Below, one piece after another: positions 7,221 to 62,699 of a stretch of 64,000 bases of DNA. The stretch's first letter is position 1. Each line of letters starts with the position of its first letter. Under the pieces are notes generated by a model, which did no database searches, had not been told where the DNA came from, and saw only the letters and a program-made list of their open reading frames with translations. A program made the translations under genes and the position numbers. This DNA is from Gymnothorax reevesii (taxonomy: Eukaryota > Chordata > Actinopteri > Anguilliformes > Muraenidae): the NCBI GenBank assembly GCA_029721435.1, contig CM056580.1:75355367-75419366 (forward strand), given 5' to 3'.

Positions 7221-7462
7221 ACAAAAAATAATTAGGTTTTATTACATCAGAAAGTGCAAAGTGCGTGCAGTGCAAAATGTTTTCGGTCACAATCAGACCA
7301 TCCTAAGTGCAAACAGAAAATGGAGAGAGATGCCCTTTTATAGACTGTGTCAAGTTGACGGCAGACTTGTCAATCAAACAGCCTAGTTAGGTTGGAGTGT
7401 TGTCCTGACATTTTAGAGGGCACCATCCACCTAGTGGTGGTTAACAGACAATGGTCTACATA

Positions 7463-7628
7463 TGTGACAGTTGAAGGGTCCTGTCACAGGAAATGTCTCT
7501 AATAAGTACATGCCCTGGCTACCTTGCCAACAAGCCTGGCTCTTTGGCGATGTGGTCAGCGCGCATGACTCTTACCCGGGAATCTAAAGGTTCAAGTCCC
7601 CGCCCGGGCCCTCCTTCAGCCTGCTACA
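7463..7628 (+). repeat. TRIM 5' LTR (166 bp) with tRNA-like segment
   Basis: It starts TGTGACAG and ends TGCTACA. Positions about 7541-7610 read as a tRNA: a D-arm/A-box-like TGGCGATGTGGTCAGCGC, an anticodon-arm-like GACTCTTACCCGGGAATC, and a B box GGTTCAAGTCC. An AATAAG polyadenylation-like hexamer lies at about 7501. Confidence 0.75.
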
Positions 7629-7724
7629 TTCTGGCGTAATTGGCAGGATCTGGGGCATCCTAATGGATGGCAGCATGCGTAAAGCATGGAGCGTGAGGAC
7701 ACGCTCATGAAAGAGGGGGAGAGA

Positions 7725-7878
7725 TGTGACAGTTGAAGGGTCCTGTCACTGGAAGTGTCTCTAATAAGTACATGCCTTGCCAACGAGCCTGGCTCTTTGG
7801 CGATGTGGTCAGCGCACATGACTCTTACCCGGGAGTCTGGTTCAAGTCCCCGCCCGGGCCCTCCTTCGGCCTGCTACA
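7725..7878 (+). repeat. TRIM 3' LTR (154 bp) with tRNA-like segment
   Basis: This is a direct repeat of 7463-7628. Its tRNA-like part (about 7795-7860) has a tighter anticodon arm than the left copy: GACTC and GAGTC can pair around TTACCCGG, and the B box GGTTCAAGTCC is kept. Confidence 0.75.
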
Positions 7879-8329
7879 CATAGATATACAATAATGAAAA
7901 ATAGATAAGAAAAAAAGGAGAAAGTAAATGAATAAATGGATTATACACAATGTAGTGGTACATATGCAGACATGGAGAGTATTAATAAAAATTTAACATA
8001 ATTGTACCAGAAACCAATACCAGTGTGCAAAAACAATATGGACCTACAGAAAACATGTAAAATCAAATTCATCATTTAAACCTTTTGGGTGCAGAGTGCT
8101 TAAGTAAAATATCCACCGCGCTTCGCACTGGAGAAGAGCCAGTGCAGTGCAACTCCTCCTGCGGGTGGATAAAACTCTGTCGATGCCCATAAAAATCATG
8201 AAACATATTAATTGCTTCCAAGTTTTGAAAGAAGTGTATGGGTGCTACGAGCCTTATGTATTCTGGCAGCAGCTTTTTTTTTTTTTACAGAAAACAAAGG
8301 GAGAATGAAAGTTTGAGTTTTCTCATACC

Positions 8330-11300
8330 TTATTGGAACTCATGGATAGACTAAAACAGTCAAAGAGGGATGCCACCAGAAACCCGGACATGGTGTAGAC
8401 GGACCAGTTTTGTGAGAATGACCCTATGTTACGTAGGGAGTTAAGAGACTGGTCCGTGGTGCGGGCAGATAGTGAATTGTAACTCCTAGATGAATGCAAG
8501 GAGGCCATTACGTGGGAGGAGGAAGGTCATGCGAGTTGTGACTGGGGCCATCGTGCCCCAGGTCCGAGTAGTGAAGCACAGGTTGCGTCGCAGTGTGCAA
8601 TTATGTCCGCTCCATCCTGAGAGTTTATAGAGCTGAAAGACCTGGTCCTTAAACAAAAAGCCCAACTGGATATGTTAGCTAGGCTGCAAGGGCCTCCTAA
8701 TGGTAAATCGCCAGCCCCTCTGCCATACAGGGGTGGCAGTTATAAATGTGCCCCCGATGGCAAGCCCATTTGCCTTTGACGTGATAAACCTGCACACATA
8801 GCTACAGCCAGGCTGCTCCCTCAACTCATAACAGTAGACCAACTCCACTTTTTCCCCCTGATGACCCCCCTGTCCAGTTATCAGGCCCCAACCACTCCAC
8901 AAGTCCACCGGGGAACTAGTTATCCCCAGTGTGCAGAGCCACACACTGGGAGGGGATGGCCCTGGCTCTTTGCACTCTCATTCCTATGGTAAGTTAGTCA
9001 AGACTTGTCCTGTGTTACTGTGTTTCTATGAGAGGTGTAGAAGTTTCCTTTCTGATTGACACTGGGTCAATGGTGACCACCATAACCCAGAGTTTCTTCC
9101 AAGAACATTTCTGTCACCTGCAAAAGAAAGATTATAAGTGGATAGGGCTCATTAAGGCTGCTAACAGCTAGATATCCCTCACATTGTCTATACAGAACTG
9201 GAAGAGATAGTGCTGGGGCTGTGTATTCCAGGGCGGGGAATCTTGATTTTAAAAGACCCAGAGAACACTACTTATAAAAATCGTAAACTATTGACACCAG
9301 GTATATTGGGAATGAATGTAATTAGGGAATATTATCAGGTTGAGCAGCACGGTTCCCAGCTCTTTTCATTCCCCTCCACTGAGTTCGGCAGCCCCAGCAG
9401 TGCTGCGTGTGTTACGACACTGAGAGAAGATTAAGGCTATTCTAAATGCATCAAAGCCCGTGAAAGCGAAAGTCTGTGGAAACAACCCGGTCCATCTTGA
9501 AGCAGGGGCCCTTACTATGGTTCCAGTGAAGTGTCCCCAGCTGGAGTCTGCAGAGTTCCTGCTTGAGCCATTAGGTTTTTAAGCTCAGCAGGTGCTTAAA
9601 GGGATAATTATTTATGTCCCCCACACTTAGATGTGGATTATAGGCAGTTGAATGCAAAGACTCTTCGCAACGCGTATCCTCTCCCCGGAATGGAAGAGCA
9701 CTATCTGGATGCACTATACAAGGTGGTTTTCTACTCTAGATCTCACTAGCGGGTACAACCAGGCTGAGTAAGACAAACCAAAGACTGCTTTCTGTACCCT
9801 ATTTGGGTTGTTTGAATTTAATAGGATGCCAATCAGGCTTTGTAATGCACTGGGCACGTTCCAGCGCCTAATGGCGCGCATGTTCAGATATTGCTGCTAC
9901 CAGTCTGATTTACTGTGCCAAGACAATGTAATTATTTTTTCCTCCATTGTGGAACATCTTGAGAGATTAAGAGAAGTGTTTGCTCAGCTGTGAAAACAAG
10001 GGCTGAAGGTCAAACTATCAAAATGCCAGTTCTTCCATCATCAAGTCAGCTACCTGGGGCATGTGGTGTTTGCTAAGGGGGTGTCAACTGACCCAGCTAA
10101 AATCAAGGTGGTAAAGGAGTGGAAATGCCCAGGACATCGGACAGAGTTACGATCCTTCCTTGGCTTTGCAAGCAACCACCGACGATTTGTGGAGGGGTTC
10201 CCGAAGCTTGCAGCCCCATTACATCACCTCGTAAGGAGGCCCAGTGGACCTCGGAGAAAGGTAAAGACCCCTCCGGTCCCTCTGGCAGCTGCGTGGGATG
10301 AAGCTTGCGAGCAGGCATTTCAATCTTTGAAGGAAAGGCTAACCACAGCTCCAGTCCTGGCCTATTTTAGAGGTGGACTCCAGCCACAAGGGCCATGGTG
10401 CAATCGTCTTGCAAGTACATCCAGTGCATCCAGTAGCTTTCGCTAGCAGAGGCCTTAAGCCTGCAGAGAAAAATATGGAGAATTATAACTCCATGGAGCT
10501 TGAACTACTTGCAGTAAAATGCACAGTAACTGAGAAGTTTCGGGAACATTTACTCGGGAACGATTTCACCATTTATACTGATAATAACCCTCTAAGCCAC
10601 CAGCAAACTGCTAAATTGTGTGCAACTGAACAGTGGTGGGCCTCCGTATTGGCACTGTTTAATTTTAATATCGCCGGGGAAAAGTAATCAAAATGCTGAT
10701 GCTTTGTCTCGGCAGTACTTGGAGTGTTTTGCCTTTGGGACAGAGGTCTCGGCACTTAGCCAGTGTTAGCCAGATGCCAGTTGTGGGGTGCCAGTGTGGA
10801 GAAATGGTTGTCTTCCCGAGGCGTACACTTCAGAATCTGAGCCTGTTGCAGGAAGCTGATCCAGTCATCGAGCTAATGTGGAAGTATTATCAAGAGGGGC
10901 AATGTCCAGGGGCAGTAGAACATGCGGGCTTGTCAAAGTCCAGCAGAGTGCTGATTCGTCAGTGGGACAATCTGGTTGAAGAGGAGGGAGTGCTGTATCG
11001 CCTGGATTATGCCCCAAGTGGGGGCCCCCAGACTTTCCAGCTGCTGCTCCCATAGTGCTTAAAGAAGAAGCCCTACGGAGTGTCAATGAGGAGCAGGGAC
11101 ACCAGGGTGCAGAGAGAACACTCCAGCTTCTCCAGAGTCGATGTTTCTAGCTAAGTATGACTAAGGATGCCGAACGATGATGGCAACAGTGTCAGCGATG
11201 CATGTTGGGAAAAGTGGTTCAACCTAAAGTCCGTACATTCTGGGGCACGTTGCAGGCGACACAGCTAAATGAGATCCCGGCCATCGATTTTTATCATTTT

Positions 11301-18745: not shown

Positions 18746-21230
18746 TGCCACCTTATCGTGGTGGAGGGGTTTGAGTACCTGAATGATCATAGGAGCTATG
18801 TTGTCTGGGGCTTATTGCCCCTGGTAGAGTCTCCCAGGGCAAACAAGTCCTAGGTGACAGGCCAGACGAAGAGAGGTTCAAAACTCCCCTAATGAATGAA
18901 CCGTAAACCAAGCATGTTCACGTCGCCCGGATTGGCGTCACCGTGACCCCACTCTGGAGCCAGGCCTGGGGTTGGGGCTGGCAGGCGAGCGCCTGGTGGT
19001 CGGGTCTCTGCCCACAGAACCCGGCTGGGCACAGCCCGAATGTGCGACGTGGGCCCGCCTTCCCGTAAGCCCATCACCCGCGGGAGGGTTCAAAAGGGGC
19101 AGATGCCTTGTGCTTTGGGTGGCAGTCGTGGGTGGGGGCCCTGGCGACCCAATCCCTGGATGCAGAAACTGGTTCTCGGGACATGGAATGTCACCTCACT
19201 GGTTGGGAAGGAGCCTGACCTTGTGCAGGAGGTCGAGCGATGAGGCTAGAGATAGTCGGGCTCACCTCCACACACAGTCTGGGCTCTGGAACCCAACTCC
19301 TCGAGAGAGGCTGGACTCTCTTCTATTCTGGGGTTGGCCGCGGTGAGAGGCGGCGGGCTGGTGTGGGTTTGCTTATAGCCCCCAGCTTAGCCGCCATGTG
19401 TTGGAGTTTTTCCCGGTGGGTGAACGAGAAAAAACTTGGGTATGGGAAAAGTTCAGGGAGGCTATGGAGGAGGATTATTAGTCGGCCCCGAAGAGGTTCT
19501 GGCAAACTGTTCGGCGCCTCAGGAGGGGAAAGCAGTGCCCTGCCAACACTGTTTACAATGGAGGTGGGGAGCTGTTGACTTCAACTGAGGATATTGTCGG
19601 CTGGTGGAAGGAATACTTGGAGGATCTCCTCAATCCCACTGACACCCCTTCCATAGAGGAAGCAGAGGCTGGGGACCCAGAGGCTGATTCATCCATAACT
19701 CTGGCTGAAGTCACTGAGGAAGTTCAGAAGCTCCTTGGTGGCAAGGCACCGGGGGTGGATGATATCTGCTCTGAGTGCCTCAAGTCTCTGGATGTTGTAG
19801 GGCTGTCTTGGTTGACACGCCTTTGCAACATCGCGTGGCAGTCGGGGACAGTGCCTCCGGACTGGACAGTGCCTCCGGACTGGCAGACCGGGGTGGTAGT
19901 CCCTCTTTTTAAGAAGGGGGACCGGAGGCTGTGTTCCAACTATAGGGGGATCACACTCCTCAGCCTCCCGGGTAAAGTCTATTCCAGGGTGCTGGAGAGG
20001 AGAATCTGGCCGACAGTCGAACCTCGTATTCAGGAGGAACAATGCGGTTTTCGTCCTGGTCGTGGAACGCTGGACCAGCTCTATACCCTCCGCAGGGTGC
20101 TTAAGGGTTCATGGGAGTTTGCCCAACCAGTTCACATGTGTTTTGTGGACTTGGAGAAGGCATTCGACTGTGTCTCTCGTGGCATTCTGTGGGAGGTGCT
20201 TCGAAAGTATGGAGTCCGGGGCCCTCTACTAAGGGCTGTGCGGTCTCTGTATGACCGGAGCAGGAGCTTGGTTTGCATTGCCGGCAGTAAGTCAGACCTG
20301 TTTCCAGTGCATGTTGGACTCCAGCAGGGCTGCCCTTTGTCACCTGTTCTGTTCATTATTTTTATGGACAGGATTTCTAGGCGCAGCCAGGGGCCGGAGG
20401 GAGTCCGATTCGGGGACCAGTGGATCTCATCCCTGCTTTTTGCAGTTGGCTCCTTCGAACCTGGACCTTCAGCATGTACTGGGGCGGTTTGCAGCCGAGT
20501 GCGAAGCAGCTGGGATGAGAATCAGCACCTCCAAGTCCGAGGCTATAGTTCTCGACTGGAAAAAGGCGGCTAGTCCCCTCCGGATTGGAGGAGAGCTCCT
20601 GCCTCAAGTGGAGGAGTTTAAGTATCTTGGGGTCTTGTTCACGAGTGAGGGAAGGATGGAGAGTGAGATTGACAGACGGAACGGTGCAGCGGCAGCAGTA
20701 ATGCGGTCGTTGTACCGATCTGTTGTGGTGAAAAAGGAGCTGAGCCGAAAGGCGAAGCTCTCAATTTTCCAGTCAATCTACGTTCCTACCCTTACCTATG
20801 GTCAGGAACTTTGGGTCATGACCGAAAGAACAAGATCTAGGATACAAGCGGCTGAAATGGGTTTCCTCCGCAGGGTGGCGGGGCGCTCCTTTAGAGACTG
20901 GGTGAGAAGCTCTGTCACCCGGGAGCTCAGAGTAGAGCCGCTGCTCCTCCACGTCGAGAGGAGTCAGTTGAGGTGGCTCAGGCATCTATATTGGATGCGC
21001 CCTGGACGCCTTCCTGGGAAGGTGTTCCAGGCATGCCCCACCGGGAGGAGGCCCCGAGGAAGACCCAGGACACACTGGAGGGACTATGTCGCTCGGCTGG
21101 CCTATGAACGCCTCGGGATACCCCCGGGAGAACTGGAGGAAGTGTCCAGGGAGAGGGAAGCCTGGGCATCTTTGCTTAGACTGCTGCCCCCGCGACCCGG
21201 CCCTGGATTAAGCGGAAGATGATGAGATGA
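18746..21230 (+). mobile_element. Non-LTR retrotransposon (jockey/I-superfamily type), internally deleted
   Basis: The element opens with a characteristic fish LINE 5' text (TTATCGTGGTGGAGGGGTTT at 18751) and ends in a GATGA-rich simple repeat at 21213-21230. The endonuclease start (LGTWNVTSLVGKEPDLVQEV) is kept at 19170-19240, but most of the endonuclease is deleted near 19420. Reverse transcriptase and a C-terminal domain follow. I do not assign the clade firmly (Nimb/I-like is one possibility). Confidence 0.8.
19575..21222 (+). pseudogene. LINE reverse transcriptase lacking its FADD active site
   Basis: Frames at 19575-20573 and 20251-21222 carry LLGGKAPGVDDICSECLKSL, VVVPLFKKGDRRLCSNYRGI, CGFRPGRGTLDQLYTLRRVL, MCFVDLEKAFDCVSRGIL and GLQQGCPLSPVLFIIFMDRI. 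A normal copy would then reach the catalytic FADD. Here LLFA runs straight into other text at about 20440, because a short deletion removes the FADD box and shifts the frame. The C-terminal part (LRVEPLLLHVERSQLRWLRH) is intact. An 18 bp tandem duplication lies at about 19847-19882. The enzyme cannot work. Confidence 0.85.
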
Positions 21231-46192: not shown

Positions 46193-46405
46193 TATAGAAC
46201 ACTTGATGAATAAATGCACCCCTCAAACGCATCGTCTATACTATGATTGATTATAGCTTACTGTAATCAAGAGTAATAGTTTAAATTGACTAAAATTGAA
46301 TAAATTGAATATTCCATTCAAATATTACAAAAGTATTTTAAATCAATAACATTCAGTGGGCTTAAGAGTAATTGGCACCCAGACTGAAAATGAACAAAAA
46401 ATACT
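46193..46405. other. Short spacer, AT-rich
   Basis: No feature is visible between the LTR end and the Tc1-like element. Confidence 0.4.
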
Positions 46406-46406
46406 A

Positions 46407-48011
46407 CAAAACCCAAAACCAGTGAAGTTAGCATGTTATGTTAATCATAGATTAAAACAGAATACAATAATTTGCAAATCCTTTTCAACTTATATTCAAT
46501 TGAATACACTGCAAAGACAAGATGTTTAATGTTCAAACTGAGAAACTTTTTTTTTTTTTGCAAATAATCATTAACTTAGAATTAAAAGGCAGCAACACAT
46601 TGCAAAAAAGTTGGCACAGGGGCCTTTTTACCAATTTGTTACATCGCCTTTCCTTTTAACGACACTCAGTAAACGTTTGGGAACTGAGGAGATCAATTTT
46701 TGAAGCTTTTCAGGTGGAACTCTTTCCCATTCTTGCTTGATGTACAGCTTAAGTTGTTCAACAGTCCGGGATCTCCGCTGTCGCATTTTGCGCTTCATAA
46801 TGCGCCACACATTTTCAATGGGAGACAGGTCTGGACTACAGGCAGGCCAGTCTAGTACCCGCACTCTTTTACTACGGAGCCATGCTGTTGTAACACGTGC
46901 AGAATGTGGCTTGGCATTATCTTGCTGAAATAAGCAGGGGCGTCCATGGAAAAGACGTTGCTTGGATGGCAACATAGTTGCTCCAAAACCTGTATGTACC
47001 TTTCAGCATTAATGGTGCCTTCACATATGTGTAAGTTGCCCATGCCTTGGGCACTAATACACCCCATACCATCACAGATGCTGGCTTTTGAACTTTGCGC
47101 CTATAACAGTCCGGATGGTTCTTTTCCTCTTTGGTCCAGAGGACATGACGTCCACAGTTTCCAAAAACAATTTGGCATGTGGACACGTCAGACCGCAGAA
47201 CACTTTTCCACTTTGCATCAGTCCATCTTAGATGAGCTTGGGCCCAGCGAAGCCGGCGGCATTTCTGGGTGCTGTTGATAAATGGCTTTCGCTTTGCATC
47301 GTAGAGTTTTAACTTGCACTTGCAGATGCAGCAACGAACTGTAGTTACTGACAGTGGATTTCTGAAGTGTTCCTGAGCCCATGTGGTGATGTCCTTTACA
47401 CACTGATTTCGGTTTTTGATGCAGTACTGCCTGAGGGATCGAAGGTCAGGGGCATTCAATGTTGGTTTTCGGCCTTGTCGCTTACGTGCAGTGATTTCTC
47501 CAGATTCTCTGAACCTTTTGACGACATTACGGATCGTAGATGATGAAATCCCTAAATTTCTTGCAATAGCTCGTTGAGGAATGTTGTTTTCAAACTGTTC
47601 GACAATCAGCTCACGCATTTGTTCACTAAGTGGTGACCCTCGCCACATCCTTGTTTGTGAATGACTGAGCATTTCAGGGAAGCTGCTTTTATACCCAATC
47701 ATGGCACCCACCTGTTCCTAATTAGCCCGTACACCTGTGGGATGTTCCAAATAAGTGTTTGATGAGCATTCCTCAACTCTCTCAGTCTTTTTTGCTACTT
47801 GTGCCAGCTTTTTTGAAACATGTTGCAGGAATCAAATTCCAAATGAGCTAATATTTGCAAAAAATTACAAAGTTTACCTGTTCGAACATTAAGTAACTTG
47901 TCTTTGCAGTGTATTCAATTGAATATAGGTTGAAAAGGATTTGCAAATCATTGTATTCTGTTTTTATTTACGATTTACACAACGTGCCCACTTCACTGGT
48001 TTTGGGTTTTG
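46407..48011 (-). mobile_element. Tc1-like transposon, full length (1.6 kb)
   Basis: It is flanked by TA (46405-46406 and 48012-48013). The ends are CAAAACCCAAAACCAGTGAA and its inverted partner TTCACTGGTTTTGGGTTTTG. Long inverted arms continue with TTTGCAAATCCTTTTCAAC and a second paired block, CAAAGACAAG-TTAATGTTC. Transposase lies between them on the minus strand. Confidence 0.9.
46628..47711 (-). pseudogene. Tc1-like transposase with two frameshifts
   Basis: Minus-strand frames at 46917-47711, 46852-47067 and 46628-46975 overlap to cover the protein. The N-terminus has a helix-turn-helix DNA-binding region (AIARNLGISSSTIRNVVKRF) and an RKRQGRKPTL linker. The catalytic triad is visible as Asp in LRSDVS, Asp in FQQDNAKPHSARVTTAW, and Glu in SPIENVWRIMKRK. 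Frame changes occur near 47050 and near 46975. The copy therefore cannot make a full protein, but few changes disable it. Confidence 0.85.
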
Positions 48012-48345
48012 TACTTAATAATCACATGTATAGGAATTATCATTTTCTACACACAAGAATTCGTGATCATCTAAAAACAAACCGGAGTACTGATCTGAAA
48101 CTGCATTTACTAAGTAGTGCTCAATTCATAGAAGCTTCTTTGCTATATTAAAACTAACATGACAAACAAATGGATAATACTAAAGTAAATGGTTAATATT
48201 CACACAGTTGTGTAGTACAATGTCCAAGGTAATCCTAGTAAATGTCCCAATGCGATGATGGAATGGTCCCCAAGAAGATATCCAAGAAAGTCCATGAATT
48301 TCCATGAAGTACAAGAATTTGAGTCCCTGTGCAGCCGACAATGTA

Positions 48346-49836
48346 TACTGACCAAAACTTCCAACGCAACACTCAGGTTTATTGCAACATGTCATTTTCT
48401 TACGATAAATTTAACAATACATAAGAAATATTAACATTCAAATCAAAAACTCAGTTTTAGAGTCAAGAATAAGGAACAGATTTTTCCTGGTTTGCAATTC
48501 ATTTCATCAGTTGAAGGCGCAATTCTGGATCACCAAAGTCAGTATCTTGTATGGCCTCCTCTGGCGTTACACACAGCCTGGATTCTGTGATGCAGGGAGT
48601 CAATCAAATGCCGAATTTCAGCCTGTGTGATGCGGTCCTATTCTTCCTGGAATGCTTGACGCAACTGTTGGACTGTGGCTGGTTCTGGATCACGCTTTCT
48701 CACCCGGCGATCCAAAATATCCCATAGATGTTCTAGAGGCTTTAAATCTGGGGAATACGCAGGCCAATCATTATTCTGCCTCAGGTAGTCCTGACAGACT
48801 CTGGCGACATGTGGTCTCGCGTTATCCTGTTGCAGCGTTTGGCGATAGCGATGGACGAGTGGAACTGCGACAGGGGTAAGGATGTCGTCACAGTAACGGG
48901 CCGCACTGAGGTTTCCATCGATGAAAATGAGGTCTGTCTTGTGTCTACTGCTTATTCCAGCCTAAACCATCACACTGGGTCCACCCCAGCAGTCATGCTG
49001 CAGGATGGTAACGTCAGTATAACATTCCCGTCGCATACGCCATACACGCAGTCTTCCATCAGAAACACTCAACTTGAACCTTGATTCATCGGAGAGGAGC
49101 ACCCTGTTCCACCTGAGAGCATTCCAGCCCAAATGTGCCCTTGACCATCGCAGACAGACGCAGCCACTTGCAGGAGTCAACACCAAACCACGGCGGGGAC
49201 GTCGGTTGTGCAAGTCGGCTTCACGCAGGCGATTGCGTCTAGTTTGGTTGCTAATCCAGCTCTGGTGACGACCTCTGGTCTGAGCAACAGTGACTGTAGC
49301 TGGCAGGAAGCGATTGCGCAGGTGCTGGAGGTGAATATGGGGATCCTGCCGAGGGGTGGTGACACGAGGTCTGGGGGCACCTGGTTGATCACCGGTGCTT
49401 CCTGTTTCATTATACCGGCTCCAGAGACGTGATATAGTCGACACGTGGGCGCCCAGGTTCCTTGCAACCCGTCTTTGCGATATTCCACCAGTGAGCATAC
49501 CAACGGCTCGCTCTCGCTGATTTTGACCTAGGCGCGGCATGGTCACCCGTTGACTCAGGATAATGCAAAGGAATATTAAAGTTGCCCATTGCTACGGCTA
49601 TTTATTGACCAAATTCTTGAAGGATTGGTCAATAAGTTCTACTCAACCTGACGGGATAGGCAAAATTCTAAACAATGTGCAATCAAGCAGAACGAGCTGT
49701 CCACACGACAAATTCAAAACAATTTTCTGAGCTTTTAAGTTGTAGTTGCTGTATCATGGCACAAAACCAATATCCCATTTTATGTACACCAAATATTTCA
49801 AAATTGTATGTGTTACGTTGGAAGTTTTGGTCCGTG
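48346..49836 (-). mobile_element. Second Tc1/mariner-superfamily transposon, full length (1.49 kb)
   Basis: Ends are TACTGACCAAAACTTCCAAC (left) and GTTGGAAGTTTTGGTCCGTG (right), an inverted pair flanked by TA on both sides. The family differs from that of 46407-48011. A single transposase frame fills the minus strand. Confidence 0.85.
48539..49546 (-). pseudogene. Tc1-type transposase, single frame with two nonsense codons
   Basis: One minus-strand frame runs from MTMPRLGQNQRERAVGMLTG to GHTRY and a TGA stop at 48539-48541. It covers a helix-turn-helix region (GISQRRVARNLGAHVSTISR) and the catalytic triad: Asp in LLSDESRF, Asp in LQQDNARPHVARV, Glu in LKPLEHLWDIL. Only two in-frame TAG codons break it, at 48962-48964 (VMV-stop-AGI) and in EE-stop-DRI near 48626. 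Both sit where relatives have Trp, consistent with single G-to-A changes. No frameshift was found, so the copy is recent. Confidence 0.85.
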
Positions 49837-50148: not shown

Positions 50149-50458
50149 TGTGGCAGTCCTGCCAGTTTGTGTTCAAGTTCATTGTTAAAACTTAGAAAAT
50201 AGCGAAGCAATTCTATTGGCTGCACCTGGGGAGGGGGAAAGAGCCAATTAGGTTCGGGGCGGTGGGTATAAGAGGGCGGAGTTGCCAGCACGAGTGTTGG
50301 TGAATACTGTGTTATTAAGAGAAATGAGTTTATTTGCGAGAGATGAAGAAACAACCCTTTTAAGGGCCGAACAGCAAATAAAGCGAAGCCTGCCCCGGAC
50401 GATGCGAGAACAGCTATTCCTGCCTCAGTCTCAGTCCTTCAGTAGCGAGACTGCTACA
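50149..50458 (+). repeat. Gypsy 5' LTR
   Basis: It runs from TGTGGCAGTCCTGCC to GACTGCTACA, with a TATA-like GGGTATAAGAGG near 50266 and an AATAAA at about 50378. Confidence 0.85.
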
Positions 50459-50469
50459 TTGGTGTCAGA

Positions 50470-51140
50470 AGTGGGATTTGAAGAAATACGCCGCAAGATC
50501 GCGCGCATCGAGGGAGAAGTGAAGACAGGGCTGCACGCGAAAGCAGACAGACACTACTCGATCTCGATCCAACTGAACAGACTAGCCTGGCTTCACTAAC
50601 CAAAGCGTTCGAAAAGCGATACGGGCAGCGCCAGTCCACCCGGCTACACCGCCAGAGGCTGCTTCTTCACGGCCGCCAAACAGGGGGAACAGTGGGGGGC
50701 CGTAGCCGCCGACCTGCGCTTCCACGCCCGCCAAGGCTACCCCACATTCGGGACGCGTGAGCAAGACGAGCTAGCGCTGCACAGCTTCCTGCAGGCTCTC
50801 ACCCTGGAACAACTGAGGCACCACGTCATGCTGACCATGCCCCAGACGCTCGATGAAGCCCTTCTACAGGCCGAAAGAGTAGAAGACGTCATCAAGGAAG
50901 TGACAGCGACAAGCCCACGGGAGTCACGCCCACAAGTACGCAAAGTGGCTCCAGCTGTCGGGAAACGAGCCGGGTGCGGCGCTGTGAGGAGCCCGCCGCC
51001 CCCAGTAGCCATCCTCCCCAGTTGTGTGCGGCCTGCCGAACCTGAACCTAGCCCGGCCCAACTTGCACCTCTAGCTGAACATCATTCTGCCCTTGTAGGG
51101 GCGGACGAGCAAAAATTCCAGTCTGCCCTTTTTAGGGCGG
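50470..51140 (+). pseudogene. Gypsy gag, broken
   Basis: Fragments in different frames include TREQDELALHSFLQALTLEQ and LRHHVMLTMPQTLDEALLQA near 50755-50880, a typical gypsy capsid C-terminal region. The N-terminal part is interrupted near 50599. No clear CCHC zinc knuckle remains. A short repeat, [20 protein letters not shown], sits at the 3' end. Confidence 0.65.
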
Positions 51141-51581
51141 ATGAGCAGGCTGGGTGGGGCCGTTGGGCTGTACCTAGACTGCCGACTGGACGGCCAACCC
51201 TGCCGTGCGCTGGTTGACACAGGAGCCACCATCTCCCTCGTCCGGCCAACGACGCTCCCCAACGCCACCTGGGAACCGACCGTGACCAGGCTGCAATCCG
51301 TGACCGGCCAGAGGATGGGCATGAAGGGCAAGAAGACAGTGAGTGTGGCTGTGGATAGCCACCTAGCCAAACAGGAGTTCTGGCTAGCAGATATTGGGGA
51401 AGCATGTATCATAGGCCTGGACTTGTTAGCATCATGGGGAGCTACAGTTGATATAGCACAGGCTACACTCACCATCGGCCGAACCACAGTTCCATTGCAC
51501 CAAGCTGCAAAAAGTAAGCGGGCGGCGAGCTCGCCGGGCCTACACAGCCAACACACGGCCCCCCGCCGACCTGCTAGCTAG
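51141..51581 (+). CDS. Gypsy aspartic protease region
   Basis: This frame reads [20 protein letters not shown] near its start, with the DTGA catalytic motif, and ends with [17 protein letters not shown], the flap and C-terminal region of retropepsins. In an active element it matures the gag-pol polyprotein. Its frame differs from those of gag and of the following reverse transcriptase, so it is part of a broken polyprotein. Confidence 0.75.
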
Positions 51582-51594
51582 CCCACCAGCGCCC

Positions 51595-52490
51595 ATGCAG
51601 CACACTAGCCGGACCCCTATCCAGCGCGCCGGCCCCGGGAGCAGCCCCGCCACCGTCCGCCCGTCTCCTTCTTCATGCCCTGCCTCACCCTCAGCTGAGA
51701 CGGCTGAGGCCGTCTGTGAGCTGTGGCGACACAGCTGCAGTGGACTCACCACTTCTCAGTGCCAGCAACTGTACCGCTTGTTGACTGATAACGCAGACCT
51801 TATCGCAGTGCGCAATGAGGAATGCACGCAGACAGATTTGGTGCAGCACACAATTGACACTGGTGATGCCGCATCTATTCGCCTGCGCCCCCATCAGTTA
51901 TCATTGTCCAATCGGCTGGCAGCGGAGGAGAAGGTGAGAGAGATGGCTGCAGCTGGTGTCATAGAGCCCTCAGGCAGCCCGTGGGCGGCACCTGCTGTAC
52001 AGGTACGTAAAAAAAATGGAGAGTGGCGGTTTTGTGTTGACTATCGGCAACTTGCAGTTACCCTCAAAGACGCCTATCCTCTACCACGCATCGACGAAGC
52101 GCTAGACCACATCGCTGGATCCAGTTGATTCAGCTCGCTGGACCTCCGCAGTGGATACTGGCAAGTGAGGCCAGCTCCTAGTGCTAAAGCTAAGACCATG
52201 GGGGGGGATTGTGGAATTTTCGGGTAATGCCGTTCGGCCTTTGCAACGCTCCGGCGACCTTTGAACGGCTCATGGAAAGAGTGCTGTCGACCGTCCCTCG
52301 AAGTCGCTGTGTCGTGTACCTAGACGACCTCTTGGTGCACGCCAGCAACTTTGAGCAAGCCCTTGAGAATCTAAGCGATTCGACTGCCTGGGCTACGGTT
52401 GAATCCCCGGGAGTGCCAGCTTCTCCGGAGGGAGACGGCCTTCCTGGGGCACCTCATAAGCGAGCGAGGGGTGGTGACCGACCCGATTAA
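51595..52490 (+). pseudogene. Gypsy reverse transcriptase, interrupted
   Basis: The N-terminal frame (51595-52128) includes [20 protein letters not shown] and [20 protein letters not shown], and ends at a TGA where relatives have Trp (IAGSS-stop-FSSLDLRSGYWQV). A frameshift near 52200 (run of G) leads to NFRVMPFGLCNAPATFERLM and the intact active site VVYLDDLLVHA at about 52314. A further frameshift near 52385 joins the next frame. Confidence 0.8.
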
Positions 52491-54177
52491 GGTAACTGCA
52501 GTGTCAGAGTGGCCGACACCGGCGGACGTGGGCGAGCTGCATAGCTTCCTGGGGCTGGCAAGCTACTATCGGCGCTACGTGCGGGACTTTGCCTCCATAG
52601 CTAGCCCTCTCCACCGCCTCACTGACAAGCACCAGGCCTTTAACTGGCCCGACGAGTGTGCGGCAGCCTTCGCACAGCTCAAGACAGCCCTCACTCAGGC
52701 CCCAGTGCTGGCGTACCCGGATGTCTGCCAACCCTTCATCGTGGACACTGACGCTAGCAATACAGGCGTGGGGGCGGTGCTATCACAGGCGGACAGTGAG
52801 GGGGAGTGTGTAATCTCCTACTACAGTCGTGCTCTGAGCCGAGCTGAAAAGAACTACTGCGTCACATGCCGAGAGCTGCTGGCCGTCATCCTAGCCATCC
52901 GTCACTTCCGCCCCTACCTCCAGGACACCTCCTTCCGCCTGCGCACTGATCACGCCTCACTCACGTGGCTCCTGCGGTTCAAGAACCCGGAAGGGCAAGT
53001 AGCACGGTGGTTAGAGACATTACAAGAGTACAACTTTACAATTGAGCACCGTGCGGGCCATCTACATGGAAATGCTGATGCCCTATCACGGCGCCCATGT
53101 GCCGAACTGAACTGTAAGCCATGTCAGAGAATGGAGGACCGGGACCAACCTGAACCACAGGTGTTGGAGGTGCGGGGACTAGAGGAGGCGGAAGGGTGGC
53201 TGCCGTGGGAAAATCAGCAGCTGCGGGAGGCGCAAGAGGCTGAAGCTGTTCTGCAACAGGTGAGGGGCTGGCTGGAGGCTGGCGCATTTCTGACCTGGCC
53301 GGAGATCTCAACTGGGGGGCTGGAGCTAAAGGCGTACTGGGGGCAACAAGGGAGCCTGGAGCTGCGAGACAGGCTGGCGTATCAGCGGTGGCGGGCTCCT
53401 GGCCGGGGCAACGACCTGCTGCGTCTACTAGTGCCTCACTCATTATGCTTGCAAATCCTTGGACTGGTGCACGGCTCGGTGGGGGTGGGCCACTTTGGGG
53501 TCAACAAGACCTTGCATCGTCTTCGGCAGCATTTCTATTGGCTGAGCTGTCGCCGAGACGTTGAGCTTCACGTTCACTGCTGCGATACCTGCACGGCCCA
53601 CAAGGGTCCTGGCGAGACTTCACACTGCAGCGCAACGTCGTGGGGGCGCCCATGGAGAGAGTGGGTGTCGATGTTCAGGGGGCCATTCCCCACCCCTGAG
53701 TCTGGCAACCGGTACGTCCTAGTGGCGATGGATTACTTCACCAAGTGGCCCGAGGCATACGCTATTCCTGACCAGAGCACTGAGACGGTGGCCAGCCGCC
53801 TGGTGGAAGAAATGTTTGCCCGGTTCGGAGTCCCAGGGGAGCTAAACAGTGACCAGGGGCGGAACTTCGAAGCCAAGGTAATGGCCGCTGTCTGCAAACG
53901 CCTGGGCATTGTGAAAACTCGCATCACTCCCCTTCACCCTCAGAGTGACAGATTAGTAGAGCGCTTCAACCGGACACTCGCCACCCAACTAGCAACTCTA
54001 GCTAGCCAACAGCAACGGGACTGGGACCAGCATCTACTGCTGGTGCTGTGGGCGTATCGCTCAGCCGTGCAGGAATCCAGCCTCTGCACTCCTGCCGCAC
54101 TGATGCTAGGACGCGAGCTCCGAACACCCGTCGACCTAGTGTTCGGCCCCCCCCCACTGAGGAGGAGCTCCAGATAG
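52399..54177 (+). CDS. Gypsy pol: thumb, RNase H and integrase (592 codons)
   Basis: A long uninterrupted frame starts in the polymerase thumb (CQLLRRETAFLGHLISERGV, LHSFLGLASYYRRYVRDFAS). It continues with RNase H (FIVDTDASNTGVGAVLSQ, YSRALSRAEKNYCVTCRELL, LRTDHASLTWLLRF, HRAGHLHGNADALSRRP). The integrase has a zinc-binding HHCC (HGSVGVGHFGVNKTLHRL, then CCDTCTAHKG) and a DDE core (Asp in VAMDYFTKWPEAY, Asp in NSDQGRNFEA, Glu in LVERFNRTLATQL). The frame ends at 54177. It has no start of its own and is the downstream part of a broken polyprotein; the ATG is incidental. Confidence 0.85.
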   Translation: MNPRECQLLRRETAFLGHLISERGVVTDPIKVTAVSEWPTPADVGELHSFLGLASYYRRYVRDFASIASPLHRLTDKHQAFNWPDECAAAFAQLKTALTQAPVLAYPDVCQPFIVDTDASNTGVGAVLSQADSEGECVISYYSRALSRAEKNYCVTCRELLAVILAIRHFRPYLQDTSFRLRTDHASLTWLLRFKNPEGQVARWLETLQEYNFTIEHRAGHLHGNADALSRRPCAELNCKPCQRMEDRDQPEPQVLEVRGLEEAEGWLPWENQQLREAQEAEAVLQQVRGWLEAGAFLTWPEISTGGLELKAYWGQQGSLELRDRLAYQRWRAPGRGNDLLRLLVPHSLCLQILGLVHGSVGVGHFGVNKTLHRLRQHFYWLSCRRDVELHVHCCDTCTAHKGPGETSHCSATSWGRPWREWVSMFRGPFPTPESGNRYVLVAMDYFTKWPEAYAIPDQSTETVASRLVEEMFARFGVPGELNSDQGRNFEAKVMAAVCKRLGIVKTRITPLHPQSDRLVERFNRTLATQLATLASQQQRDWDQHLLLVLWAYRSAVQESSLCTPAALMLGRELRTPVDLVFGPPPLRRSSR

Positions 54178-54540
54178 GTGAGGCTACCTATTACCACCAG
54201 CTCCTCGAAGGCATGCGAGTGGCACAGAACTTTGCTCGGTAGGCTCTGGAAACTGCGGGCCTACGCCAAAAGCGGCACCACGACAACCGTTGCCGCGGGC
54301 CAGCTTTTGCTGCAGGGAGTCCGGTTTGGGTCTACTGCCCGAAACGCCAGAAAGGCCTATCTCCCAAACTACAACCACACTGGCGCGGCCCTGCAGAAGT
54401 GCTGCACAGACTGGGAGAAGTGACCTACAGGGTGCGTATGCCTGACACCAGGCGGGTGGTGGTCTTACACCAAGACAGGCTGGCCCCCTACCAGCCTCGG
54501 GCTGCCAGCCCCGCCCCCAGCGCCGTGACACAGCATCCTG
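54150..54540 (+). pseudogene. Gypsy integrase C-terminal tail
   Basis: After a frameshift the expected C-terminal text continues: EEELQIGEATYYHQLLEGMR, a stop, then SPVWVYCPKRQKGLSPKLQP and LHRLGEVTYRVRMPDTRRVV. No chromodomain is recognised. Confidence 0.65.
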
Positions 54541-54696
54541 AGCTTACCAGCAGGCAGTCAGCAACGGACACCAGGACATTTTGGGGACTTCGTTGTGGGG
54601 TAATGTTTTCTTTATTTTTTTTGTTGTTGTTTTGTTGCTTGGGAGGGTTGGTTGTTGTGGGGTCGTCGGGGACAGTGACCCCTTAGGTGGGAGCAA

Positions 54697-55007
54697 TGAG
54701 GCGGTCTTGCCAGTTTGTGTTCAAGTTCATTTGTTAAAGTTTAGAAAATAGCAGAGCAATTCTATTGGCTGCACCTGGGGAGGGGGAAAGAGCCAATCAA
54801 GTCCGGGGCGGGGGGTATAAGACGGCTGAGCAACCAGCACGAGTGTTGATGAATACTGTTTTATTAAGAGAAATGAGTTTATTTGCGAGAGATGAAGAAA
54901 CGGCCCTTTTGAGGGCTAAACAGCAAATAAAGCGAAGCCCGCCCCGGGCGATGCGAGAACCACTATTCCTGCCTCAGTCTCAGTCCTTCAGTAGCGAGAC
55001 CGCTACA
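54697..55007 (+). repeat. Gypsy 3' LTR
   Basis: It runs from TGAGGCGGTCTTGCC to GACCGCTACA. It aligns end to end with 50149-50458. Confidence 0.85.
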
Positions 55008-55144
55008 ATACTAATACTAATGCTAATAATGCTAATAATAATAATAACAACAACAATTCGACATGGTCTACAACATCCCCCACCGATTGTGTGCTTCTTA
55101 TTTTCGAAGTCCAACAAGGCCTTTATGGTCTGAAGCTACACATA

Positions 55145-56942
55145 GGGCTGGGCGATATATATATCGATATAATTTTTAAGCGCAATGAAAGTAACTGCCT
55201 CTATGGGGCAGACGGACGAGTTTGATTATTAACTTTTCTATGCCACATACCTTTAATTTAGTGTTGAACTAACATCAGAGGCCATTTGAAATTCTTCCGG
55301 TAAGAAAAGTGCGATTTGAAGTCTGCTAATTACCAGCGAGGTTGGATAGCCTCTATCGCCTTGGCATAATTAGCTCACCTTAAATCAATTCCCGCTTACT
55401 TTGTATAACTTGCAATCAAGCCATTTATTCAGCCAACTGGCCAATGAAAATCTAAATGTGGCCTATAATGATTACGAAGAGATAGAGAAGCCCACAAACC
55501 TAACCAGGCTGAGATCAGATTAAAAGAATGTCAATCTGAATAAATGGCAGACCTCTGAATTCCGCCTCTCATCGTGAAACTTAAACGTATTATGCAAGAG
55601 GATTTCTTACAAATAAAATCACGTTAAGATTTGACATGATTTTTTTAGCGTTTTAAAATATATGCGAAGCGGAAAACGTAGTGTGAAGCATATTGAACGT
55701 GACATGTAAATTGTTGTCGTATTTGCACACAATTGCCAAATCCAAACACATTCAGGCTAAGTGCTGAACCAAGCAACGTGTAAAGGTATTCAAAATCATC
55801 GTCCTCTACTCAACAATTGCTTTCACCCCCTTCCCATTTACTTTTAACTAATTTGCAATCATGCAGTTGACAATTGATTCGCTCAGTCAACAATTTAAAT
55901 TGGTAGACAGTCTATTTTATTTCGACATCATGTTTGTTTGTCGTATTTTGAAATTGAAATGGCCATGAAACATGCGTTGCCTGAATGCGTTTGGTACATT
56001 ATTTCTAGTTTCATATTTGGCCTCAGTGTGAGAATGCGTTTACAATTTACATGTCACGTTCGATACACTTAAACAAAATGTTTTCTACCTTCACTGTAGG
56101 CAATTTATACGCTCAGAAGTTACCAGAATCAAGAGCTATGCATGACTTTATTTCAAATTACTCCTGTTCAGTTATTAATTTGGTGCATTCGTCTATTGCG
56201 TGCAATGCGAAAATAATTTCTCACATTCACGTTCTACATGCTTCACAAAATGTTTTCCACTTCGCGTATATTTTTAAGGCAGTTGCTACGGGTAGGAGAG
56301 TTCTCCAATGCATTTCAATGTAGAGAGGTTTCAAACCCTACCCCAGCCGAACCCTTCCCATAATCCTTATCCTAATCCCTTGAAGTCGGCTGCCATACCA
56401 ATAAGAACAGCCGTATCTCTATACACTGCGTATTTTTTAAACCTTTTAAAACCACGGCCATCTTAATTGATTTTATTTTTTCCAAAATCTTTTTATCAGT
56501 ACGTAAAAATGCAACAATGAGAGCTGAATTCAGAAGCCTGATATTTATTCAGATTATTGACATTCTTTCAGTCTAACACCGTAGCGGGTTACGTCTATCT
56601 GCTTCTCATTATGTGTTCTAAAATAATTATAGGCCATATCTTGGTTTTGATCAGTCAGTTGGCTGAAAAAACGGCTTGAGTGCAAGTTAGGCAAAGTACA
56701 CGGGAATTGATTTAAGGTGAGATAATTATGCCATGGCGATGGAGGCCGTCCAACCTCGCTGGTAATTAGCAGACTTCAAATCGCACTTTTCTTCCCGGAA
56801 ACACATCAAATGACCTCTCATGTTTGCGCCACGCGGCATTAGGTATAGAAAAGGTAATAAGCAGCCTCGCCTGTCTGTCCCATAGTGGCAGTTACTTGTA
56901 TTGCGCTTAAAAATGTCGCGATAGATATATCGCCCAGCCCTA
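55145..56942. mobile_element. 1.8 kb fold-back element with very long inverted arms
   Basis: It starts TAGGGCTGGGCGATATATAT and ends ATATATCGCCCAGCCCTA. The arms pair imperfectly for about 570-700 bp (for example TTTTTAAGCGCAAT, GTGCGATTTGAAGTCTGCTA and AAATCAATTCCCG have inverted partners). Inside, a second set of inverted matches, GCGAAGCGGAAAACGT and ACGTGACATGTAAATTGT, extends the fold nearly to the centre. There is no transposase. Near-identical 14-base repeats (CTGAAGCTACACAC and CTGAGGCTACACAC) flank it. Confidence 0.75.
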
Positions 56943-57085
56943 CCTGAGGCTACACACCAAATTTGGTTGTCCTATCTGTAATAGTTTCTGAGAAAAGTTG
57001 TCCCCTTTCTCTCGGACAGACGCACGCACGGACGGACGGAGGTTAAACCTATATCCCTCTCACACTTCGTGTTGGCGGGGGATAA
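56943..57085. repeat. Host repeat of the fold-back insertion
   Basis: CACCAAATTTGGTTGTCC, the ACGGACGGACGGAGG run and GTTGGCGGGGGATAATAA form a common fish repeat. Its left half (about 55070-55140) lies on the other side of the fold-back element. Confidence 0.45.
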
Positions 57086-59361: not shown

Positions 59362-60691
59362 CACTAGTGTTTCAGTTTTTATTGGGTAGCTTGCTTTATA
59401 GTTACGTAGTGGTTATTGCCCCGGACGTCCCCAGGTCAATATCAGGTAGAGGCAGAGTAATATAGCCGGTGTCCGGTTCAATTTTCTCAAATGTCCAGTT
59501 ATTGAGCCGTCCTAAATTAAAAGTTACGTCCGGGTCAATAGGCCCCACCCGATAAGGTAACTTGGTCACCGTTAGCTTGCTAGCCTGGTCTGTTATGTGA
59601 ATTTTCCACAGCAATGACTTGGTATATATCCATCAACCCATTTGGCTAGCTGCGTTAACATTTATCTTTGGCTCGTATAAGTTCTGATTCTAATCGTGCG
59701 TTTGCTTTGTGTTCCCTCGCAAGCCAAGTTAGCTGGACACGGGTCTGGTCCATGGATCTCCGTCCAGGCGCCAATCTGTGCAGCCGTGCTGTTAATTTGG
59801 CTGAATTAGGTACATCTATGTTTTTAGCGGTTATTTATCAATTTAATCCACATTTTGACATATCTTTGTAGCTAAAACGTAGAAAATAAAAATTCCAATT
59901 CATCATTGTGAAATAATTGAAACAGCTGGGCGAATGGGGAAAATAAGCAGTCAATCAATGGGTTCTTTATCGGTGTAACCGTGTACACATGGTCTCCAAC
60001 ACCTAGATTCACTAAGCAGGCAAATGACAGTGAAACCTGTTTGGTGCCATGTTTATGTTAAGTTGAAGCAAATTATTTTAAACGGAAAGTGAATGCCTAT
60101 GTTAAGCACTAATTTGGAGCTCACTTATTTTCTGTCAGATTAGATCTGTTTAAAAATGCCCCTGCTTGAAATTTCTGGTTATATATAAAATAAACATGTT
60201 GTAGGGTCATTACTGCGCACAAAGATGCGTATCAAAATGTGGCTTTAGATGGTAACTATCTGCGCTAAAATTGAAATGCACCTCATGAGGACAAATTAAC
60301 AGCTTATTAATAGTGGGGTGCAAAAATATGTGCACCCCTGGTTTAAATATCTGTTACAGTTAATCTCCAAGTGATTGAAAGGAAACCTGAACACTAAATG
60401 CTTCAAAGTTAAACATGACACCTTTTTACAAATTTAAAAGCAAGGTTTCTTTTTATTTAAATTTTTCTGAGACTTTAAATGATAAGAAAGGAAAAAAGGG
60501 CCCTGTGCAAAAGTTTGGGAACCCTTTAGGATTATTCCTTTGTTACCTTTTAAAGAAGATGATTACTTAGGCACAGACCCAGGTGATTTACTCGTTATGG
60601 CTTCAGTGAGACTGGTGAATATAACCCCAGGGTTGAACTAGATATTCTGAAGGAACTCCATGCCCTCTAAAGTATCCGACTGTGGTGTCTG

Positions 60692-61770
60692 GTGTTAAAA
60701 ACCATGTGTTCCTCTAAACAGTTGTCCAGGGATGTCAAAATCAAGATAATTCACTTCCACCAACAAGGAGAGGGCTACAAAAAACTCTTGCAACATTTCA
60801 AACTACCCATTTCTACTGTCAGAAACATCATAGGAAAATGGAAAATAAATGTAACAATTGAAGTCAAGGCAACATCTGGAAGACCAAGAAAAATTTCAGA
60901 TAGAATGGCCCGAGATCTGGTGAGAAATACTCAAAAGAACCCACACATCACTGTAAAAGACCTGCAAAACAGCCACTGGACAACAGTCCACCATACCTTA
61001 AACAACAATGACCTACATGGCAGAGTTGCAAGAAAGAAGCCTTTCCTATGACCTCAACACAAAGTTAAGTGTCTGAAGTATGCAAAAGAGGACCTTGAGA
61101 AACCTCAAGCATATTGCAACAGTGTGCTTTGGACTGACAAAACCAAAATTGAACTTTTTGGCCACAACCAAAGAAGGCATGTTTGGAGAAAAAAGGGTGA
61201 AGCATTTGTAGAGAACACGTTGCCAACTGTTAGGCATGGAGGTGGATCCATTGTACTTTGGGGTTGTGTAGCTGCTGGGGGCACAGGCGGGTGGAAGGAA
61301 GAATGGATTCCACCCAATATCAAGACATTCTAGAGCCCTGGTCCTCAAATCGCAGTCCTCAAGGTCCGACACCTGCTGCTTTTCCACCCTCCCTTTACCT
61401 GGGAGTCATGAGATATGACAGTCAGGCCAATCAGGGGTGCCACTTGCCATTTACTCACCTGGGATAAAAGAAAACCTGGACTGAAATTGGGTCTGAGGTC
61501 CAGATTTGAACATCCCTGTTCTAGTGTCTAATGTTCAAAGCTGAGTCCTGAAATTGAAGATGAAGAGACACCGTATTCCAGCAAGACAATGACCCTAAGT
61601 GTACCTCAAAATCCACCATGAAGTACCTCCAGGAAGGATGGATGAAGGTTTTGGAATGGCCATCACAGTCCTCAGGCTTGAATATTATTGAAAATCTGTG
61701 GAGAGATCTCAAACATGCTGTGCATATAAGAAGGCCAAAAAATATTTCTGAGCTAGAGGTGTTCTGTAAG
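60692..61770 (+). pseudogene. Tc1-like transposase, split by a MITE
   Basis: The first frame (60692-61051) has KIIHFHQQGEGYKKLLQHFK and STVRNIIGKWK, a helix-turn-helix domain, then SGRPRKISDRMARDL. After a stop at 61051, SVLWTDKTKIELFGHNQRRH carries the first catalytic Asp. The frame is cut at 61336 by a MITE and resumes with VFQQDNDPKCTSKSTMKYLQ (second Asp) and LNIIENLWRDLKHAVHIRRP (catalytic Glu). The piece then decays. Confidence 0.8.
61337..61518. mobile_element. hAT-like MITE (182 bp)
   Basis: It has CCCTGGTCCTCAAATCGCAG at the left and GAGGTCCAGATTTGAACATC plus CCTG at the right. TTCTAGAG (61329-61336) and TTCTAGTG (61519-61526) flank it, an 8 bp duplication with one mismatch. It interrupts the Tc1-like transposase. 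Confidence 0.7.
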
Positions 61771-62699
61771 GAAGAATGAAATATTACAATAAAATTTTAT
61801 TTATTTTTTTTATCGAATGAAATGTTACAAAGACAAGAATTGAAAGACTCTTAGCTGGCTACAGGAAGCGTTTGCAAGCTGTTATAGCTGCCCGAGGAGG
61901 AGTTACAAAATCTCAGCTGGCAGGGTTCCTAAACTTTTGCACAAAGCCTCTTTCCTTGTTTTATTATTTTGAAACAGTAAAAGTTTAAAATGAAAATAAT
62001 TTTTTCTTTAAAATGTGATGAAATGTGTCATGCTTAACTTTGTAGCATTTAGTGTTCAGGTTCGCTTTCTATCACTTGGAGATTAATTGCATCTGACATT
62101 TAAACCAGGGGTGCCCAAATTTTTGCACCCCACTGCATCCGACGGTTGCACTTGCGGTGGAACCAAAAACCAATATACACAAAGACGGTGGGAGTAAAGT
62201 TTGGCAAACACTCACCAGAATAGTTTAGGCTGAGTCCTCTACCATTCCAATAGCTGGGGCAGCACTGTTGTTCGGGGTAGCGATCACCGCCGCAGGCTCA
62301 TGTGCCCATGATGTAGGCAAAGTAAATTTACTGTGTGACAGAGTTCTGCCTCAGCAGGGCCTGCGGGGTTTGTTTACCCTTTGAAAAATGAAAAATAAAG
62401 TATCAAGTAAATACTGTGGTTATTTGCTAAAGCAATAAAATGACCTTGGCACGGACATGTGGGCGGAATGGCTTGCACGCAAGTTGAATATATATGCTTG
62501 CAAAGAAAGTGTAAGTGGGAATAAAAATTGTTGATTGAGGTTTCCCTCCAAAATGGCAAGCTTGTAACTAGCTTACCTTGTTTTCACTAACTGAAGGACT
62601 GAGGTAAGCGGACCAGCTTCACAGGAATAGTAGATGGGCAACAGACCATTTCTAGTCGTCATGCGAATGGCCAATTAGGATTTGTCTTGTGGGAACTTG

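Follow-up and report, generated by a model that had tools for sequence, protein, structure and literature searches.

A probable non-autonomous miniature LTR retrotransposon of the Helenus kind with tRNA-type promoter boxes in Gymnothorax reevesii

Can an LTR retrotransposon of a vertebrate carry, within its own LTRs, a promoter of the type used by tRNA genes? The question is raised by a short repeat unit in a stretch of 64,000 nucleotides of the Gymnothorax reevesii genome (GenBank assembly GCA_029721435.1, contig CM056580.1, positions 75,355,367 to 75,419,366 of the forward strand), which is the whole of the DNA analysed here and is called the window. We hold with high confidence that this unit is a complete insertion of a non-autonomous miniature LTR retrotransposon (TRIM) of the Helenus, or TRIMp3, kind in a vertebrate genome. 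How such an element would be transcribed, packaged and primed is discussed below at lower levels of certainty.

The insertion and its surroundings

Read directly in its one copy, the sequence from 7463 to 7878 is a complete, non-coding LTR-interior-LTR unit of 416 bp (Table 1). The LTR pair and its ends, the target-site duplication, the primer-binding site (PBS), the polypurine tract (PPT) and the promoter boxes are all present, and the insertion carries the hallmarks of reverse transcription primed by a tRNA and of integration by an integrase. The original prediction of a miniature LTR retrotransposon with tRNA-type Pol III boxes in its LTRs is supported, down to the 4-bp flanking duplication and the interior of only 96 bp. 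It also described two direct repeats of about 160 bp with TG/CA ends; the pair and the ends are as described, but the length averages two unequal LTRs.

Table 1. Features of the element, with positions in the window
Feature	Position	Strand	Basis
Target-site duplication, left copy, CATA	7459-7462	.	sequence reading
5' LTR, 166 bp, TGTGACAG...CTGCTACA	7463-7628	+	sequence reading, self-comparison
tRNA-like stretch of 5' LTR, degenerate; limits estimated from the tRNA numbering of the boxes	7538-7610	+	
A box TGGCGATGTGG, 5' LTR	7545-7555	+	box scan
B box GGTTCAAGTCC, 5' LTR	7589-7599	+	box scan
Interior, 96 bp	7629-7724	+	RNA folding against shuffles
Primer-binding site, 16/18 to the 3' end of tRNA-Ser	7632-7649	+	
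Perfect 7-bp hairpin GAGCGTG-AGGA-CACGCTC, candidate packaging signal	7689-7706	+	folding
Polypurine tract GAAAGAGGGGGAGAGA	7709-7724	+	
3' LTR, 154 bp, ends as in the 5' LTR	7725-7878	+	sequence reading, self-comparison
tRNA-like stretch of 3' LTR, degenerate; limits estimated	7791-7860	+	
A box TGGCGATGTGG, 3' LTR	7798-7808	+	box scan
B box GGTTCAAGTCC, 3' LTR	7839-7849	+	box scan
Target-site duplication, right copy, CATA	7879-7882	.	sequence reading

Self-comparison of the window pairs the two LTRs with a BLAST E of about 1e-60. Their alignment has 154 sites with 6 substitutions, 5 of which are transitions (K2P 0.040), and 12 gap columns, the difference in length being made up of one 9-bp and one 3-bp block present in the 5' LTR only. 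Both LTRs of a single insertion are identical at the time of integration; therefore the six substitutions indicate that this copy is not brand new. No second copy of the element was found in the window: at E up to 1 the LTR picks up, beyond its partner, one stretch of 20 bases (19961-19979, E 0.31). At the start of the LTR the first eight bases (TGTGACAG) return inverted in the following 18 bases (CTGTCACA; 7463-7488 for the whole), and in the 3' LTR this inverted repeat has one pair fewer. Folding of the first 76 nucleotides of the LTR is only a little more stable than that of shuffled sequences (z -1.12), 24 of 200 shuffles being equally stable.

Pattern scans outside the window covered viral and prokaryotic contigs, and misses in these collections say little about vertebrates. 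The viral contigs yielded six stretches, in which only the 18-base pattern itself matches the element at E up to 1, and the prokaryotic contigs yielded one match, within a 205-codon reading frame of a bacterial record. All seven were judged to be chance matches.

The element sits upstream of an exon-like frame on the minus strand (2146-2562) that matches the helical domain of KANSL3 (E 8.5e-06; 26 bits at a cut-off of 23), and Tc1-type transposase frames lie around it. Two such frames (46917-47717 and 48962-49591) are found within 46405-49591 on the minus strand, and parts of 46405-48016 are repeated at 35-37 kb, mostly inverted. A frame with a DNA-binding domain of the Sleeping Beauty/Tc1 type lies at 60312-62134 between inverted copies of a repeat of about 210 bp that are 80% alike. 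On the plus strand, a reverse transcriptase (RVT_1, E 1.1e-23) is encoded at 19482-20573, and an overlapping frame at 20233-21222, which has no Pfam match, may continue the same element.

The tRNA-like part of the LTRs and its transcription

Each LTR had been predicted to hold an A-box-like sequence, an anticodon-like arm and a B box. The boxes are borne out: compared with the consensus sequences (TRGYNNARNNG for the A box, GGTTCRANNCC for the B box), TGGCGATGTGG has one mismatch and GGTTCAAGTCC is exact in both LTRs, and the starts of the two boxes are separated by 44 bp in the 5' LTR and by 41 bp in the 3' LTR, which is the spacing of a tRNA. A scan of both strands of the window, in which the A box was allowed up to one mismatch and an exact B box had to follow 20-75 bp downstream, gave two pairs on the plus strand, those of the two LTRs, and none on the minus strand. 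Local alignment to 26 tRNAs resulted in a score of 35 for each LTR, which was attained by 0 of 300 base shuffles for the 5' LTR and by 1 of 300 for the 3' LTR. The best isotype among these 26 tRNAs differs, being Asn for the 5' LTR and Leu for the 3' LTR, and so points to no single source tRNA. By direct reading, both LTRs keep the 3-bp D stem (GCG/CGC) whole and have a reduced T stem. The anticodon-like arm holds for one LTR: its 5-bp stem is complete in the 3' LTR only (GACTC at 7820-7824, GAGTC at 7833-7837), the 5' LTR having GAATC instead.

To call this part a tRNA-like gene was, however, an overstatement. ARAGORN at default settings reports no tRNA in the element, Rfam finds there neither a tRNA nor any other match, also at E up to 5, and the folding check that had been suggested for the LTRs turned out negative, the tRNA-like pieces being no more stable than shuffled sequences (z 0.73 and -0.14). 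Therefore the tRNA-like part is a promoter-like remnant and not a tRNA gene, and a functional tRNA gene in the LTR is rejected. With a lowered threshold ARAGORN makes seven calls in 7301-8000, with scores of 28-34. One falls on the 5' tRNA-like stretch (7538-7611, tRNA-Lys(CTT), score 34), two Cys calls with scores of 30 and 28 overlap the 3' stretch, and the other four lie elsewhere, two of them on the reverse strand. These calls were given no weight. One of the reverse-strand stretches, which lies outside the tRNA-like parts, scores 34 as well; when introns are also allowed, the number of calls exceeds 250.

Transcription of the TRIM by Pol III is in our view most likely. The element contains no TATA-type, AATAAA or ATTAAA motif, in contrast to a Gypsy element of the same window, which has TATA and AATAAA in both LTRs on the plus strand; the contrast fits transcription by Pol II for the Gypsy and by Pol III for the TRIM and is no proof of it. 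The stop run TTTT is absent inside the element and first occurs downstream at 8083. This absence is not significant, as TTTT is also absent from 1391 of 2000 shuffles and from 17 of 68 GC-matched stretches of the window; therefore the argument for Pol III from missing stop runs was dropped.

The alternative that survives best is a TRIM whose LTR drives transcription by Pol II; the tRNA-like stretch would then be the fossil of a SINE insertion and would not act as a promoter. The degeneracy of this stretch, which escapes the tRNA tools at default settings, its reduced T stem and the U3-like sequence that precedes it are all in agreement with such an origin. However, a TATA or AATAAA motif is missing, and the boxes are identical in both LTRs despite 6 differing sites of 154, which is a weak point given so few differences. 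We consider transcription by Pol II unlikely, while still giving it some weight.

Priming, leader structure and the Gypsy partner

The original prediction also recognised a primer-site-like start of the interior and a polypurine tract, and both stand. The PBS begins 3 nt past the 5' LTR, the interior opening with TGGCGTAATTGGCAGGAT, and among the 3' ends of the 26 tRNAs it is matched best by tRNA-Ser(AGA) at 16 of 18 positions, followed by Arg with 12 and Leu with 11. In a control scan of 12,795 places on the plus strand (every fifth base, 8 offsets each) against the same 26 tRNA ends, two sites reached at least 15 of 18, namely the PBS of the TRIM and that of the window Gypsy, each located directly after an LTR. 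A second Ser-type PBS was not found in the window with up to three mismatches allowed. It could be that tRNA-Ser serves as the primer, with some doubt left by the two mismatches in this one copy. The PPT is a run of 16 purines that directly abuts the 3' LTR; purine runs of this length or longer occur 13 times on the plus strand of the window. The RNA of the interior, folded as a single sequence, reaches -33.5 kcal/mol compared with a shuffle mean of -23.5 kcal/mol (z -3.71) and is more stable than all 200 dinucleotide shuffles.

We propose that Pol III would bind the A and B boxes of the 5' LTR and start near 7530-7538. As the element has no TTTT stop, an absence that is compatible with read-through and not significant in itself, the polymerase would read through the interior and the 3' LTR into the flanking DNA. 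Lying downstream of its own start site, the promoter would be part of the transcript, and each round would give it back to both LTRs. The TRIM RNA would be packaged in particles of an autonomous Gypsy element and copied in trans, with tRNA-Ser priming the first strand at the PBS and the purine tract priming the second strand, and the Gypsy integrase would insert the product, making the 4-bp duplication.

The window contains a Gypsy element at about 50149-55007, which can be compared with the TRIM. Its LTRs (50149-50458 and 54697-55007) are 90.7% identical in self-comparison, it encodes a protease and, in a different frame, RNase H and integrase domains, the duplication is ATAC (4 bp), and the PBS matches tRNA-Leu at 18 of 18 positions. 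On account of this tRNA-Leu PBS we rejected the element as the direct partner of the TRIM, and the window yielded no Gypsy primed by tRNA-Ser. The 5' LTR of the Gypsy has the ends TGTGGCAG...CTGCTACA and the 3' LTR has TGAGGCGG...CCGCTACA; the 8-base LTR ends TGTGRCAG and CTGCTACA are common to the TRIM and the Gypsy, both being intact in the 5' LTR only of the latter. Such short motifs prove little alone, given their counts in the window: 12 occurrences of TGTGRCAG against 5.7 expected, and 3 of CTGCTACA, all at LTR ends, against 2.2 expected. An inverted repeat pair of about 500 bp (55126-55630 and 56460-56959, 77% identity) directly follows the Gypsy. About 2 kb downstream of the TRIM, a Gypsy-like pol remnant with RNase H matches is found at 9994-10687 on the plus strand; it is uninformative on the partner, because self-comparison at E up to 1e-8 gives it no LTR pair and the window has no second Ser-type site.

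The Gypsy-like LTR ends and the 4-bp duplication would also be expected of a recent internal-deletion derivative of one autonomous Gypsy whose LTRs carry the same sequence. Yet the TRIM LTR has no match to the LTRs of the window Gypsy at E up to 1, the two elements differ in their PBS, and an autonomous element would be unlikely to have an LTR of 166 bp that lacks Pol II signals. Such a derivative is, in our judgement, quite improbable.

The weakest alternative, two adjacent tRNA-derived SINE copies that merely resemble LTRs, shares with the TRIM a tRNA-type A and B promoter in each repeat, as SINEs in general do, but SINEs are mobilised by LINEs and have no LTRs, PBS or PPT, and we reject this barely credible reading because the tRNA-like part starts about 65-75 bp inside the repeat and not as a head at its 5' end, neither repeat ends in an A-rich or simple-repeat tail, PBS and PPT lie at the inner junctions, and a single 4-bp duplication surrounds the whole unit, which by itself largely refutes a SINE pair.

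Relation to Helenus and implications

The original prediction regarded a tRNA-type promoter in a vertebrate TRIM as an unusual LTR/SINE hybrid. That such a hybrid would be without parallel in vertebrates is not supported: TRIMs with tRNA-derived LTRs were named Helenus (TRIMp3) and reported from fungi, a plant and animals, the vertebrate hosts being the coelacanth, sterlet, paddlefish, zebrafish, other cypriniforms, a catfish and the milkfish (Kojima, 2024; PMC10886601). Among the titles that our literature search listed, no other names a tRNA-bearing TRIM. According to the parts of that paper available to us, which also underlie the comparisons below, Helenus elements range from 311 to 1263 bp, and for most of them a functional tRNA is not expected; those of animals have tRNA-derived LTRs, PBS, PPT and 4-bp duplications, with PBS similarity to Gypsy only; and most Helenus show TRGCY and YGG in box A and GGTTC in box B (PMC10886601).

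The element described here fits the structural definition of Helenus. It is shorter than 1000 bp with two LTRs, it has A and B boxes of tRNA type in short LTRs that ARAGORN at default settings and Rfam do not recognise, and its PBS behind the 5' LTR, PPT ahead of the 3' LTR and 4-bp duplication are those of Helenus. Compared with most Helenus, GGTTC and TGG are present and box A reads TGGCG, one base off TRGCY. The primer sets it apart: the published vertebrate families use tRNA-His, -Leu or -Lys, and among the animal groups with stated primers (wasps, vertebrates and bivalves) tRNA-Ser is given for bivalves only (PMC10886601), whereas the PBS found here matches tRNA-Ser at 16 of 18 positions. 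This is a trait of the known families and not of the kind. The element is probably a new vertebrate Helenus family, as judged against the published descriptions. What may be new is the tRNA-Ser primer, as the tRNA-promoter TRIM itself has already been published, vertebrates included.

Pol III promoters of other small-RNA genes occur in TRIM LTRs as well. Cassandra, a plant TRIM, carries the promoter of the 5S rRNA gene, unlike the tRNA-type promoter seen here, where Rfam at E up to 5 gives no match. Ajax, a nemertean TRIM of 421 or 434 bp, also has a Pol III-type promoter; its sequence is 5S rRNA-derived and its duplications have 5 bp (PMC10886601, in the parts available), in contrast to the present element, which has tRNA-type boxes and a 4-bp duplication.

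A further step is offered tentatively, as we give it somewhat less than an even chance. It could be that an undescribed lineage of vertebrate Helenus moved to a Gypsy primed by tRNA-Ser; within vertebrates, tRNA-promoter TRIMs would then have changed the autonomous element that they depend on, as SINEs do with LINEs, and would have kept only the LTR tips, the PBS and a structured 96-nt leader as their packaging ticket.

Judged by its structure, the element adds to the evidence that LTR retrotransposons of vertebrates may run on a tRNA-type Pol III promoter. With an interior of 96 bp it comes close to the smallest size at which such an element is still recognisable, which narrows what a Gypsy would need for mobilisation in trans to the LTR tips, a PBS, a short structured leader and a PPT. 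If it is true that tRNA-Ser is the primer, this would widen the set of primers reported for vertebrate Helenus in the published descriptions available to us.
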